NCBI RefSeq assembly: GCF_019635465.1
Contig: NZ_JAHBZK010000014.1
Span: 1-64,000 of the forward strand
DNA: 64,000 nt
Reading direction: 5' to 3'
DNA from: Hydrogenophaga sp.
Lineage (GTDB): Bacteria; Pseudomonadota; Gammaproteobacteria; Burkholderiales; Burkholderiaceae_C
In this document: positions 18,067-41,371 of the stretch, in pieces
Layout: every line of letters starts with the position of its first letter
Numbering within the stretch: position 1 is the stretch's first letter
Made by a program: the position numbers and the translations under genes
The notes under the pieces: model-generated
Told to the model about the DNA's origin: nothing
What the model saw: the letters and a program-made list of their open reading frames with translations, nothing else
Databases searched by the model: none

Positions 18067-19032
18067 TTACTTTTTGTAGGCGTCCACGAGTTGCTGGCCT
18101 TCGGGTCCAGCCTTGGACAGCCACTCCTGCAGCATGGTGGCGCCCACCTTCTGCAGGTCGGCCTTGAGGGCGGCCGAGGGCGGCTCCACCGCCATGCCGT
18201 TGGCCTTGAGGGTGGCCAGCGTGTCGGTGTTGACCTTCTCGGAGGCGGCCCAGCCACGGGCCTCGGCGTCGGCGCCAGCCTTGAGCAGGGCGCCTTGCGT
18301 GGCCTTGTCCAGGGCGTCGAAGGCCGCCTTGTTCACGATGACGGCGTTCTTGGGCAACCAGGCCTGCACGTCGTAGTAGTACTTGAGGTGCTCGTAGAGC
18401 TTGCTGTCCACACCGGTGGCGCCCGAGGTCATGTTGGCCTCGACCACGCCGGTGGCCAGCGCCTGCGACAGCTCGGCGGCTTGCACGGTCACGGGCTGAG
18501 CGCTCACCAGCTCGGCAATGCGGGTGGTCGACGGGCTGTAGGCGCGCCACTTGGCGCCCTTGAGGTCGGCCGCGCTGGCGACGGCCTTCTTGCTGTACAG
18601 ACCCTGCGGCGGCCATGGCACGGCGTAGAGCAGCATCATCCCTTGCTCACCCAGCTTCTTTGCCAGGATGGGTTTTTGCGCGGCGTAGAGCTTCTTCGCA
18701 TCGGCGTAGCTGGTGGCCAGGAACGGGATGCCGTCGGCACCGAAGATCTGCCATTCGTTCTGGTAGGCCGCGAGCAGCATCTCGCCGATCTGCGCCTGGC
18801 CGCCTTGCACCGCGCGTTTGATCTCGGGCGCCTTGAACAGCGAGGCACCCGGGTGCACCGTGATCTTGAGCTTGCCGCCGCTGGCCTTGTCGACGTCGCT
18901 GGCGAAGGTGGCAAGATTGACCGAGTGGAAGTTGGTGGCCGGGTAGGCGGCGGGCAGGTCCCAGGCGGTCTGGGCCTGGGCAGCAGCGCCAAAGGCGACG
19001 GCCAGGCTGGCCAGGGCAAGTTTGAATTTCAT
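18067..19032 (-). CDS. TRAP transporter periplasmic binding protein (DctP type), system 1
   Basis: A 321-residue secreted protein with a signal peptide (MKFKLALASLAVAFGAAAQA) cut near residue 20. The mature protein starts QTAWDLPAAYPATNFHS. The conserved arginine stretch for carboxylate binding is in GAKWRAYSPSTTRIAELV near 159. It is closely related to the binding protein at 21040-22008; both share DVDKA, GGKLKIT-like and EIKRAVQ segments. The start at 19032 follows GGAG. It is divergent from the LysR gene and first in a leftward operon with DctQ and DctM. Confidence 0.93.
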   Translation of the reverse strand: MKFKLALASLAVAFGAAAQAQTAWDLPAAYPATNFHSVNLATFASDVDKASGGKLKITVHPGASLFKAPEIKRAVQGGQAQIGEMLLAAYQNEWQIFGADGIPFLATSYADAKKLYAAQKPILAKKLGEQGMMLLYAVPWPPQGLYSKKAVASAADLKGAKWRAYSPSTTRIAELVSAQPVTVQAAELSQALATGVVEANMTSGATGVDSKLYEHLKYYYDVQAWLPKNAVIVNKAAFDALDKATQGALLKAGADAEARGWAASEKVNTDTLATLKANGMAVEPPSAALKADLQKVGATMLQEWLSKAGPEGQQLVDAYKK

Positions 19033-19053
19033 GGTCGCTCCAGGGTTTGAACG

Positions 19054-19082
19054 ATTGACAAAGATGGGCAGCATAGTTGCAA
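19054..19082 (-). promoter_or_regulatory. Candidate promoter for TRAP system 1
   Basis: On the minus strand TTGCAA (19082-19077) and GTCAAT (19059-19054) are 17 bases apart, 22 bases before the binding-protein start. The region is the 96-base gap between this operon and the divergent LysR gene, so the LysR protein may bind here. The match is moderate. Confidence 0.35.
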
Positions 19083-20133: not shown

Positions 20134-20222
20134 CCGCCCCAACGTGACAAGCCTGTGACGTGCAACCGAAGCGGCACATGCCGTTTCAACCGGAGACCAG
20201 GACCGTGGGGCTGTTGGAAGAC

Positions 20223-21038
20223 ATGGACGTGATTCGCATCGATGCCGACGCCCAGGCGCGTGCCCGGCACCTGCGCGACACCATCCGCCACGGCGAGTGG
20301 ACGCAACACACCAGCGGCCTGGCTGACGATCTGGTGCAGGGCAACGTGGTAATCCTGCCGCGCGATCTGGCCGACGAATTTCTGCTGTATTGCCAGCGCA
20401 ACCCCAAGCCCTGCCCGCTGCTGGCGGTGGGTGAGGCGGGCAACCCGGCGCTGCCCGGTCTGGGCGACGGCATCGACATCCGCAGTGATCTGCCGCGCTA
20501 CCGCGTCTGGCGCGACGGCGTGCTGGTGGACGAGCCGACCGAGATCACCTCGCTCTGGCGCGATGACCTGGTCACCTTCGTGATTGGCTGTTCGTTCTCG
20601 TTCGAGCAGGCCTTGCTGGAGGCCGGCATGCGCCTGCGCCACATCGACCAGGGGCGCAACGTGGCGATGTACCGCACGAACCTGGCCACGGCACCCGCCG
20701 GCCCGTTCAGTGGCCCCATGGTGGTGAGCATGCGCCCGCTCAAATCGGCCGACGCCATCCGCGCGGTGCAGATCACCTCGCGCTTTCCCGACGTGCACGG
20801 CGCACCGGTGCACATCGGCGACCCCGCACTCATCGGCATCCACGACCTGGCGCACCCCGACTACGGCGACGCGGTTGAGGTGATGCCCGACGAACTGCCT
20901 GTGTTCTGGGCCTGTGGCGTCACGCCGCAAGCGGCCATCACACAGGCGCGCCCCGCGTTCTGCATCACGCACGCCCCGGGCGCGATGTTGATCACCGACC
21001 TTCTCAACCAGCAACTCGCAAGCGACCAAGGAGAGTGA
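20223..21038 (+). CDS. DUF1445 putative hydro-lyase / D-glutamate cyclase family
   Basis: A 271-residue protein of the DUF1445 family. Diagnostic segments are [20 protein letters not shown] near the start, [13 protein letters not shown] near 60, the cysteine-bearing [17 protein letters not shown] near 120 and [15 protein letters not shown] at the end. The mammalian relative DGLUCY turns D-glutamate into 5-oxo-D-proline (established). A 5-oxoprolinase is encoded later in the same cluster, which fits a pyroglutamate-related pathway. ATG 20223 has GGAAG six bases upstream and matches family length. A GTG at 20160 or ATG at 20178 would add up to 21 residues. Confidence 0.85.
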
Positions 21039-21039
21039 C

Positions 21040-22008
21040 ATGTTCAAGACGGTAATCGGCCTCAGTGCCCTGGCACTGGCCGGCGCGGTGCACGCGCAGG
21101 CCAAGTGGGACCTGCCCAGCGGCTACGGCGCCAACACCTTCCAGGTGCAGAACCTGCAGCAGTTCGCCAACGACGTGGACAAAGCCACGGCCGGCAAACT
21201 CAAGATCACGCTGCATCCCGGCGGCTCGCTCTACAAGGCCAACGAGATCAAGCGTGCGGTGCAGACCGGCCAGACACCTGCGGGCGAATTCATCATCTCG
21301 GGGGCGGCCAACGAGAACCCGCTGTTCGGCGTGGACTCGGTGCCTTTCCTGGCGACCGGTTATGCCGACGCCAAGAGGCTGTACATGGCCGCCAGGGGCG
21401 CGCAAGAGAAGGCGCTGGCGCAGCAGGGCATGAAGGTGCTGTTCTCGGTGCCCTGGCCCGGCCAGTCGCTCTATTCCATCAAACCCGTCAACGGGCCGGC
21501 CGATCTGGTGGGCACCAAGATGCGCGCCTACAACCCGGCCACCACCCGCATCGCCCAGTTGCTCAAGGCCCAACCGGTGACCATCCAGCTGGCCGAGCTG
21601 CCGCAGGCATTGGCCACCGGCGCTGTGCAGAACTTTCTCACCTCCAGCGCCAGCGGGGTGGAGAGCAAGCTGCATGAGCAGGTGAAGAACTTCTACCCGG
21701 TGTCGGCCTGGTTGCCGCGCAACATCACCGTGGTCAATCAGAAAGACTTTGACGCCCTCGACAAGCCGACGCAGGACGCGCTGCTCAAAGCGGCGGCCGA
21801 GGCCGAGACGCGTGGCTGGGCCATGAGCGAGAGGCTCGACGGCGAGTACATCAAGCAGCTGGCCGCCAATGGCATGGCCATCACGCCGCCGAGCGCCGAG
21901 CTCAAGCAGGCCCTGGCCGCCATCGGCGAGACCATGACCGCCGAATGGATCAAGGCGGCCGGCCCTGAGGGCCAGGCGATCGTGGACGCCTTCCGCAAGC
22001 AGCCCTGA
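21040..22008 (+). CDS. TRAP transporter periplasmic binding protein (DctP type), system 2
   Basis: A 322-residue secreted protein. The signal peptide MFKTVIGLSALALAGAVHAQ is followed by mature AKWDLPSGYGANTF. The carboxylate-binding arginine is in GTKMRAYNPATTRIAQLL near 158. It is strongly similar to the binding protein of system 1 in both sequence and length, so the two systems look like paralogues. It starts two bases after the DUF1445 stop, with AAGGAGAG as ribosome site inside the end of that gene. The nested palindromic element follows its stop by 12 bases. Confidence 0.93.
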   Translation: MFKTVIGLSALALAGAVHAQAKWDLPSGYGANTFQVQNLQQFANDVDKATAGKLKITLHPGGSLYKANEIKRAVQTGQTPAGEFIISGAANENPLFGVDSVPFLATGYADAKRLYMAARGAQEKALAQQGMKVLFSVPWPGQSLYSIKPVNGPADLVGTKMRAYNPATTRIAQLLKAQPVTIQLAELPQALATGAVQNFLTSSASGVESKLHEQVKNFYPVSAWLPRNITVVNQKDFDALDKPTQDALLKAAAEAETRGWAMSERLDGEYIKQLAANGMAITPPSAELKQALAAIGETMTAEWIKAAGPEGQAIVDAFRKQP

Positions 22009-22020
22009 GCGGCTGATGCC

Positions 22021-22288
22021 AGTCCAATGAATCAGAGAAAACGCACCCCCGTGAGCACCTGCCAGGGGCGCCATCTAGGCGCCAAGCGCAGCCAGGCTGG
22101 TTGCCTGGCGAGCATTGGCAACGACGAGGGTGCCCCTGGCAGGTGCTCACCCTTCGGGCCGTGCCGCCAAGGCGCGCATGCGGGCGTTGCGGCCCTTGCG
22201 CAGGCGGCCAGCCTGCGCGGCGGACCGCGTCTACGCCTGCACACCTTGGCGGCACGGCGGGGGTGCGTTTTCTCTGATTCATTGGACT
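22021..22288. repeat. 268-bp nested palindromic element with 30-bp perfect terminal inverted repeats
   Basis: The 30 bases at 22021-22050 (starting AGTCCAATGAATCAGAGAAA) are the exact reverse complement of 22259-22288. Two further stems fill the interior without gaps at their outer edges. Stem 1 is 19 bases (22051-22069 with 22132-22150); stem 2 is 15 bases (22158-22172 with 22244-22258), separated by CCTTCGG. Each arm carries a smaller hairpin: GCCAGGC/GCCTGGC at 22091-22109 and GCGCAGGC/GCCTGCGC at 22198-22218. The whole folds as a three-way junction. No transposase, coding sequence or clear target duplication is present. It fills most of the 373-base gap between dctP and dctQ; the remaining 93 bases hold only the dctQ leader. 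Confidence 0.9.
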
Positions 22289-22381
22289 AGGTGGCCACGC
22301 GGCCTTACCTGGGTGGTGCCCCGGTGGGCGGCACCGCCCGAACCTCTCTCCCTTCTCTTTCTCAACGTGGCGAGGCGCACG

Positions 22382-22888
22382 ATGGACAAGCTCGTCCTGC
22401 AATTCTTCCGCCTGTTGCTGGCGCTGGCCAGTGTGGCGATGCTGGCGGCCTTTGCCAGCGTGAGCCTGGGGGTGATGGCGCGGCTGATGCGCTGGGACAT
22501 CCCGGGCCTGGACGCGTACGCCGGCTACGCCATCGCGGCGGCGCTGTTCCTGGCCTTGCCCGGTACGCTGGTGCGCGGCGAGCACATCCGCGTGACGCTG
22601 GTGCTCGATCGCCTGCCTGCCGGCTGGCGCCGCGGATTCGAGTGGTGGTGCCTGCTCGCCGGCCTGGCCTTGTCGCTCTACACGGCGTGGTACGCCGGCC
22701 AGTTGGTGTGGATCTCGCACCTGACCCACGACGTCTCGCCCGCAGCCGATGCCACGCCCCTGTGGTTGCCGCAACTGGCGATGGCGCTGGGCTGTATCGG
22801 TCTGGCCCTGGCCTTTGCGCAGGCGGTGATCTGGCGGTTGTCCGGGCGCGAGCTGATCGCAGCCGACACCGCCGCCCGCACCGAATGA
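22382..22888 (+). CDS. TRAP transporter small permease (DctQ type), system 2
   Basis: A 168-residue, four-helix small permease. It shows the same pattern as system 1: GLDAYAGYAIAAALFLALPG followed by RGEHIRVTLVLDRL, and DVSPAADATPLWLPQ near the third loop. The start at 22382 (MDKLVLQFFRLLLAL) is the first in-frame ATG that gives a normal first helix. Longer readings from 22115 run through the palindromic element and are rejected. The DctM gene follows 40 bases later. Confidence 0.92.
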   Translation: MDKLVLQFFRLLLALASVAMLAAFASVSLGVMARLMRWDIPGLDAYAGYAIAAALFLALPGTLVRGEHIRVTLVLDRLPAGWRRGFEWWCLLAGLALSLYTAWYAGQLVWISHLTHDVSPAADATPLWLPQLAMALGCIGLALAFAQAVIWRLSGRELIAADTAARTE

Positions 22889-24240: not shown

Positions 24241-25230
24241 ATGCGACGTCGCACCGCACTGATCGGCCTGGGCCACGCCCTGGGCGCGTCACTGGCGCTG
24301 GGCGCCAACGCACCCACGACCTGGCGGCTGGCCACGGGCTATCGCGCCAGTTCCTTCCACACCGAAAACCTGCGCTGGTTTGCCGAGGCCGCGGGCAGGG
24401 CCACTGGCGGTGCATTGCGCATCGATGTGGTGCCCGACAACCAGTTGGCCCCGTTGGCCCGCATCGAAGGTGAGGTGCGCGCCGGGCGCATCGAGGCAGG
24501 CGAGACCATCATGAGCAGCCTGGTCGCCGAGGTACCGATCGCCGGGGCCGACTCGGTGCCGTTCGTGGTGTCGAGCTACGTGGACGCCCGGCGCCTGTGG
24601 ACCTTGCAGCGCCCGCTGATCGAGCGTCACTTTGCCGAGCGCGGTCTGGTGGTTTTGTATGCCGTGCCCTGGCCGCCGCAAGGCTTGTACAGCCGGCGCC
24701 CGATCAGCGACGTCAGCGACTTCCGTGGCAGCCGCATGCGCACCTACAACGCCACCACGGTTCGCATTGCGCAGTTGCTGGGTGCCGAGCCGGTGGATGT
24801 GCCCATGGTGCAGGTGGCGCAGGCGCTGCAGGCCGGGCGCATTGACAGCATGATCACCTCGGCCGTGACGGGCGTTGAAAGTTCGGTGTGGCAGCACATC
24901 AACCACTACCACGAGATCAACGCCTGGTTTCCCAAGAACATCGTGTTCGTGAGTCGACTCGCGTTCGAGCGACTGGACGCATCTCAACGCCAGGCGCTGC
25001 TGCGAACGGCTGGCGAGGCCGAGGCGCGCGGCTGGCAGTTGAGCGAAGCGGCGGCCTCCACCTCCACGCAGACCCTGCGCCAGCAAGGCATGACGGTCTC
25101 GCGCGTGCCAGCCCAGGTGGACGCCGCACTCAAGCGACTGGGCGAGAAATTTTCCCGCGAGTGGGTACGATCCGTCGGTCACGAAGCCAACGCGATCTTC
25201 GTCCCCTATTACCTGCAATCCCCCCGATGA
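24241..25230 (+). CDS. Second TRAP binding protein (DctP type) in the system 2 operon
   Basis: A 329-residue periplasmic binding protein with an arginine-rich signal start (MRRRTALIGLGHALGASLAL) and a predicted cut near residue 22. The family core is present: DSVPFVVSSYVDARRLW, VPWPPQGLYSRRPISD and GSRMRTYNATTVRIAQLL with the binding arginine near 166. It is more distant from the other two binding proteins than they are from each other. Two binding proteins for one permease pair is unusual and may widen substrate range. GGAGG precedes the start. Confidence 0.91.
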   Translation: MRRRTALIGLGHALGASLALGANAPTTWRLATGYRASSFHTENLRWFAEAAGRATGGALRIDVVPDNQLAPLARIEGEVRAGRIEAGETIMSSLVAEVPIAGADSVPFVVSSYVDARRLWTLQRPLIERHFAERGLVVLYAVPWPPQGLYSRRPISDVSDFRGSRMRTYNATTVRIAQLLGAEPVDVPMVQVAQALQAGRIDSMITSAVTGVESSVWQHINHYHEINAWFPKNIVFVSRLAFERLDASQRQALLRTAGEAEARGWQLSEAAASTSTQTLRQQGMTVSRVPAQVDAALKRLGEKFSREWVRSVGHEANAIFVPYYLQSPR

Positions 25231-41344: not shown

Positions 41345-41371
41345 AAAAACCGCGCCATGGCGCGGTTTTTT
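41345..41371 (+). terminator. Intrinsic terminator after ompA
   Basis: A perfect 26-base palindrome, with stem core CCGCGCC/GGCGCGG around CCATGG and an A-tract before and T-tract after it (41345-41371). The A and T runs mean it can also act on transcripts from the other strand. It ends 24 bases before ubiG. Confidence 0.9.

Follow-up and report, generated by a model that had tools for sequence, protein, structure and literature searches.

A nested palindrome between dctP and dctQ in Hydrogenophaga as a probable member of a widespread MITE family with a conserved hairpin core

Introduction

How does a nested palindrome of 268 bases come to lie between two genes of a transporter operon, and does it serve that operon or merely occupy it? 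The palindrome was picked out at 22021–22288, inside the dctP–dctQ gap, of a 64,000-nucleotide stretch of DNA from Hydrogenophaga sp. (contig NZ_JAHBZK010000014.1; hereafter the window), and the original prediction offered for it a non-autonomous mobile element, a regulatory site of the operon, or a structured RNA. MITEs are mostly viewed as worn-down insertion sequences (IS) with little interior. We conclude below that the element is very probably a MITE whose copy here was placed by an IS5-type transposase acting in trans, and whose interior consists of two facing, conserved modules that would work as a single strand. The MITE family to which it belongs is real, widespread and unusually structured, and the window holds one lineage-specific insertion.

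The element and its locus

The predicted position between dctP and dctQ of a TRAP operon is borne out by Pfam, which identifies DctP, DctQ and, after dctQ, DctM (PF06808). The parts of the locus are listed here, with bit scores from R1, a covariance model of one arm built on 36 arms that include both arms of the window element, and with base counts in 97 representative arms, which are partly favoured by that model:

21040..22008, + strand: dctP, upstream neighbour of the element (PF03480, E 2.1e-37)
22020..22021, + strand: left junction dinucleotide CA (37 elements compared: TA in 23, CA in 6)
22021..22051, + strand: left outer arm, terminal inverted repeat of 31 nt, complementary to 22258–22288; end type as in L238, L010 and L014
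22052..22149, sense +: arm 1, hairpin module of 98 nt (R1 match, 99.8 bits)
22077..22082, + strand: 5' box AGGCGC of the internal loop of arm 1, from sequence; its six columns are kept in 90–97 of 97 representatives
22118..22123, + strand: 3' box GCAACG of the internal loop of arm 1; GCAAC in 94–97 of 97 representatives, the last G in 77 of 97
22150..22158, no strand assigned: CCCTTCGGG mini-hairpin at the junction, a fourth arm of 3 bp; CCC-3 nt-GGG in 21 of 21 two-arm elements
22159..22257, sense −: arm 2, hairpin module of 99 nt (R1 match, 80.5 bits)
22185..22190, − strand: GCAACG box of arm 2 (CGTTGC on +), from sequence and alignment
22227..22232, − strand: AGACGC in arm 2, a one-base variant of the AGGCGC box, from sequence and alignment
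22258..22288, + strand: right outer arm, terminal inverted repeat of 31 nt, complementary to the left arm
22288..22289, + strand: right junction dinucleotide TA (37 elements compared: TA in 23, TG in 12)
22382..22888, + strand: dctQ, downstream neighbour of the element (PF04290, E 2.2e-16)

The outer repeat is perfect, as had been proposed, with arms of 31 nt and not 30 (22021–22051 and 22258–22288, complementarity 100%), and the two inner stems, 22051–22075/22126–22150 (complementarity 92%) and 22158–22182/22234–22258 (88%), contain uninterrupted stretches of 19 and 15 bp, exactly the lengths first described. The junction, originally drawn as three-way, is four-way, because CCCTTCGGG forms a tiny extra arm; the small hairpin seen in each inner arm is present, but belongs to a single conserved module of 98–99 nt. 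Folded as RNA, the element reaches −220.5 kcal/mol, and 200 shuffles average −126.4 (sd 5.3; z −17.7). Nowhere else in the 64 kb window do perfect inverted-repeat arms of at least 14 bases lie 120–320 nt apart. Its 268 bp contain mechanical ORFs only and no transposase gene, one such ORF (87 aa, 22027–22290) covering nearly the whole element. With CA on the left and TA on the right, this copy has no clear target duplication, in keeping with the first description. A chance palindrome was considered as a reading of the element and rejected. Elsewhere in the window, a perfect 26-base palindrome without spacer (41345–41370, 13 bp) is perhaps a terminator or operator, and 4722–4815 matches R1 weakly (21.4 bits, E 0.026), either by chance or as a decayed module.

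Comparison with relatives separates the element from the operon. The genes dctP and dctQ lie side by side in 13 of the 14 relatives whose region was fetched, with a gap of about 6–244 nt versus about 376 in the window, and the R1 module was found in the dctP–dctQ region of none of the 14 relatives' loci, one of which (L113) stops short of the gap and is uninformative. Because the 13 relatives with both genes have a short, module-free gap, the window copy is a lineage-specific insertion; the element does not belong to the basic plan of the dct operon, and a dedicated, operon-specific regulator of the TRAP genes, one of the roles first envisaged, is rejected on the same evidence. An influence of the insertion on dctP, dctQ and dctM expression is possible. 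Three genes for DctP-type binding proteins (18067–19074 on the − strand, 21040–22008 and 24241–25230 on the + strand) surround the single dctQ–dctM pair, and a D-glutamate cyclase family gene (20160–21038) lies near them.

A dispersed family of copies

The search with all 268 bases that the original prediction called for revealed dispersed copies, by BLAST in at least 75 of 200 genomes of the taxonomic family; matches to R1 reach up to class level. Among 29 of the BLAST loci (L010–L038) an outer repeat is present in 21 and no clear one in eight; 18 of those 21 are full length (about 266–276) and three are shorter (185, 218 and 223). Twenty-one two-arm elements, three of them from the window's genome, were cut into 42 arms, of which R1 uses 36; left out of the underlying set (A1) were L007 arm 1, where the boxes are missing, L031 arm 2, which runs in the other direction, and both arms of L021 and of L027, near copies of others.

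R1 was positive in eight of eight genomes, all chosen for prior BLAST matches, with at least 32 matches in the window's genome, at least 46 in G007, at least 41 in G149, at least 20 in G099, at least 12 in G174, at least four each in G133 and G060 and at least one in G114. The 31 matches listed for the window's genome fall at 19 sites, among them L152, which has no clear outer repeat. At E ≤ 0.001 and with stricter filters than in the eight-genome search, under which G114 drops out, R1 matched at least 82 of 200 genomes in the order and at least 74 of 274 in the class, the window's own genome being included in both counts; the class through which the module is spread we take to be Gammaproteobacteria in the GTDB sense. 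An arm-core pattern found 14 stretches in named genomes, of Rivibacter, Aquabacterium, Pelomonas, Hydrogenophaga, Roseateles, Ramlibacter and less closely named Burkholderiales; Rivibacter subsaxonicus and Roseateles saccharophilus are examples of hosts in culture. The closest copy seen, L238, comes from a Hydrogenophaga genome and is identical at 244 of 268 positions (91%), with a shared end type and different flanks.

In a collection of plasmids, BLAST with the window element or L238 gave no match; L023 matched 10 records, one of them weakly over its full length, in Variovorax (66%, E 0.02), and the others over short stretches, and L261 gave two partial Burkholderia matches. Modules are present in one Variovorax and one Burkholderia record of this collection, and neither of the two records inspected had gene annotation near the match. 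One core pattern had no match in viral contigs, and open-frame length did not differ between insertion sites and random places (p 0.78 and 0.63, GC-rich genomes).

Mobility and partner insertion sequences

Movement can be followed in G432, a complete genome of a family other than the window's, which holds 22 copies of 266–268 nt in both orientations (all 22 end pairs listed at two-arm spacing were fetched). In ungapped comparison with one of them, L261, in the better orientation, 21 of the 22 (L261 included) score 0.929–1.0 and L271, one base shorter, scores 0.881. TA stands at the right junction in 22 of 22 copies and at the left in 21, as against both sides in only 17 of the 37 elements of mixed age compared earlier. 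The same genome carries a one-arm form of 163 nt and two armless forms of 49 and 50 nt (L294–L295). Aligning copies for empty sites and target duplication, as had been recommended, was productive: where L274 is inserted, the flanks meet at a single TA in 16 of the 19 relatives aligned and at AA in three, and uninterrupted counterparts exist also for L273 (TA) and L261 (CA), in a comparison that covered five of 12 G432 sites searched, with L266 and L269 only poorly aligned. By eye, L274 seems to be inserted about 14 codons within a minus-strand coding sequence, so copies may not always be intergenic.

G432 also contains an 857-bp element in 11 copies, one end of which, GAACCCATTTCATAAATAG, equals the end of the small element over 19 nt, the other end differing from it by one or two mismatches; one copy has two overlapping frames, which reach 112 and 134 bits with NF033580 (IS5 family transposase; cut-off 110). 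In the window's family, PF13340 matches occur in 52 of 200 genomes, and the 30 loci fetched include IS of about 810–880 bp with the end AGGGCCTGTTAAC (L191, L194, L199 and L201), as in other copies of the element, and one with AGAGCGTGTTATG (L193), like the element in L218. Seven proteins from IS loci match NF033580, half-frames of L201, L199 and L197 falling just below the cut-off. No IS with the window's own end type was found, nor an IS5-type transposase in the window's genome (88% complete) by PF01609 or PF13340, nor any transposase near seven solitary ends inspected by eye. The R1 module was absent, at E up to 0.1, from nine IS5-type loci (L277, L278, L201, L199, L191, L194, L197, L193 and L179), and the element's interior is therefore not a remnant of the IS examined. 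The ends of family members are clearly unlike, although the number of kinds depends on the mismatch cut: 38 hand-picked ends, clustered by single linkage over 12 nt, form 11 groups at up to three mismatches, five at up to four and two at up to five.

The G432 copies at TA, the empty site and an IS whose ends are almost those of the element make a MITE mobilised in trans by transposases of IS5 type the best reading. The relatives display IS5-like terminal inverted repeats, TA insertion, an empty TA site and, in one genome, a partner IS, and the original suggestion of a non-autonomous element moved in trans thus holds at the level of the family, with its many copies. In the window, an IS5-type transposase supplied in trans would have inserted the copy into the dctP–dctQ gap. 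The armless and one-arm forms of G432 speak against the MITE reading.

The conserved module

Each module comprises a 21-bp stem of free sequence, a near-fixed internal loop, AGGCGC/GCAAC, and two short inner stems. Of 57 pairs of neighbouring arms, with each related copy counted separately, 56 are arranged face to face, L031 being the exception, and in 54 of the 57 the gap between the modules is 8–9 nt. The test for covariation in the inner arms, also proposed at the outset, was made on 150 aligned arms (A2; 147 distinct), the best of 188 R1 matches in 100 loci after the 38 weakest were dropped. In this alignment, which was fitted to the structure, 95.5% of cells pair versus 56.5% when shuffled and 36–42% when slid; covariation is 0.944 versus 0.204 for shuffles, and two-sided changes occur in 32 of 33 pairs versus 29.8. 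One of the five measures, further pair types, was not above shuffles (89 of 500 as high). A MAFFT alignment of 36 arms, made with no structure supplied, already shows two-sided changes that preserve pairing in 30 of 33 pairs.

Sequence is conserved where pairing does not demand it. Among the 97 representatives, in counts partly favoured by the model, the unpaired loop bases C34, A80 and A81 are present in all 97, A31 in 96 and G33 in 94, and the paired bases of the loop boxes are nearly as constant (G32 and C82 in 97, G35 and C79 in 96, G78 in 94, C36 in 90); G27, C29, A69 and A70 are also common to the 36 arms aligned without a model. Strong constraint acts on pairing in the module, which occurs in many families and beside unlike ends.

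On the sense strand, G-T exceeds A-C by 120 to 35 in the 97 representatives, an excess that may be partly model-derived, by 27 to 10 in the BLAST-found set (p 0.008) and by 25 to 12 and 41 to 8 in model-found sets; in sets found without a structure model the ratios, 12:8 for the end pattern and 8:5 for named genomes, are not significant. The lean has the same direction in all sets, but is weakened by the outer stems, intended as a neutral control, which give 16 to 9. The proposal of a structured RNA is accordingly upheld in part: the arms covary and sense-strand G-T outnumbers A-C, but RNA and single-stranded DNA are indistinguishable. As anticipated, the module is no known RNA family, a possibility rejected on Rfam gathering scores: the window segment 21500–22800 (E up to 1) had four microRNA matches, all far below them, and ten loci had no match reaching them.

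These features suggest that the module would work as a folded single strand, most likely RNA in read-through transcripts, lagging-strand DNA being a less likely working form. With one arm on each strand, an insertion in either orientation would supply one sense module, and a conserved factor would read its loop.

Weighing the alternatives

Two other origins may be set against a MITE moved by an IS5-type transposase. A regulatory RNA or mRNA stabiliser of the TRAP operon, setting the ratio of dctP to permease, would suit the location in the dctP–dctQ gap and the very stable fold, and a ratio effect could result from the insertion itself; the short gaps without R1 module in the 13 relatives and the occupation of unrelated loci by other copies make it very unlikely. 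A REP/REPIN-like repeat moved by a RAYT (Y1) transposase would share with the element its paired hairpins and conserved mismatches. Yet the long terminal inverted repeats at TA are common to a DDE-type IS5 element, and the ends read AG...CT at TA and do not show the GTAG-type tag that marks the hairpin foot of REP/REPIN (PMC3733652); on these grounds a REPIN is rejected as scarcely credible.

Other alternatives concern the module. Template switching copies one arm onto the other in imperfect palindromes, and a module with no selected function could in this way keep its stems perfect. In 15 pairs of related copies (identity 0.78–0.97), 51 two-sided changes kept pairing versus 63 one-sided changes, and three two-sided changes broke it, the pairs not being independent of one another (five of them include L145, and L145–L138 gives 19 of the 51; without this pair, 32 to 54). 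The window copy and L238 differ by seven two-sided and four one-sided changes, and the outer stems of ten copies in the window's genome (G000) show 16 versus eight, which again favours copying; outer stems in two G007 sets give 6 to 6 and 2 to 7. By an estimate, not a computation, two-sided change exceeds the expectation from independent mutation at such identity, for which arm-onto-arm copying, selection for pairing, or both would do. Copying leaves the near-fixed unpaired bases (A31, G33, C34, A80 and A81) unexplained, and a module without selected function is in our judgement improbable. Alternatively, the arms might act as DNA, extruded or lagging-strand hairpins joining the ends or attracting the transposase, with the core as a transposition enhancer. 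The facing arms, one per strand, would fit this, as would the folding of the entire element back on itself and the fact that in DNA hairpins, too, G-T is milder than A-C. Against it, the G432 IS has nearly the same ends in its 11 copies and no module, and armless and one-arm elements exist in the G432 subfamily, so the arms are not strictly needed, unless these forms are deletion products; we regard an enhancer as rather unlikely, though more plausible than a functionless module. Returning to a module read as a folded single strand within a MITE, it might be a transposable 'passport', an independently selected motif, spread through an entire class, repeatedly joined to different IS5-type ends and read, in RNA or single-stranded DNA form, by a conserved factor of the host or of the element, an idea that we offer tentatively and would not yet favour.

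Relation to known elements and significance

In shape, the element recalls the T-shaped AAV-type terminal repeats, viral replication ends in which a stem bears two side hairpins, but no relation is suggested. Like IS5-type MITEs, it is short, has no transposase gene and comes in dispersed copies with empty sites, to which its relatives add TA and shared repeats; the usual though not obligatory origin of a MITE, internal deletion of an IS, is not borne out for it by nine IS loci, none of which has the module. IS5-family IS (NF033580) agree with it in the first 13–19 nt of their ends and in a TA or CTAG junction, but are mostly about 810–880 bp, encode a transposase and, in those nine loci, lack the module. 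MITEPsy1 of Pseudomonas syringae, as characterised in the parts of PMC3189936 used here, is likewise non-autonomous, with demonstrated transposition and ends like those of ISPsy2 (family listed as IS5?); it is 100 nt long with 18-nt repeats, inserts after CTAG or YTAA with a 4-nt duplication and, in those parts, is not described as having a conserved two-arm core. ERIC, Correia, RUP, YPAL and similar repeats are also short and dispersed, some palindromic and some with effects on transcripts, whereas the present family joins one folded core to many unlike ends, a distinction drawn by description only and from portions of the two sources (PMC10969869; PMC2229807). No description of the hairpin core was found in the literature searched, and an earlier, partial one in work on a Polaromonas JS666 MITE is possible.

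That a core with a near-fixed loop recurs across unlike ends suggests that the interior of a MITE has a selected function here and that some factor recognises it. In G432, forms with two arms, one arm or none share their ends and stand beside an IS with nearly those ends, and because these natural experiments coexist in one genome the role of the core is directly testable. The family would also account for many very stable hairpins in Burkholderiales and beyond.

Variant forms

Several loci depart from the two-arm plan. In the window's genome, L146 and L147 are mutually inverted copies in which only one arm keeps the conserved loop, the other being a long hairpin that lacks it, and L203–L205 are armless palindromes of 41 nt made of two ends only. 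Such armless forms (41 and 49–50 nt) are the smallest members of the element series. In G149, L211–L214 have the AGGGCCTGTTCACAC end but a different interior; since L211 (247 nt) and L212 (250 nt), in which both ends are visible, give no R1 match, other cores may ride on AGGGCCTGTTCACAC ends.
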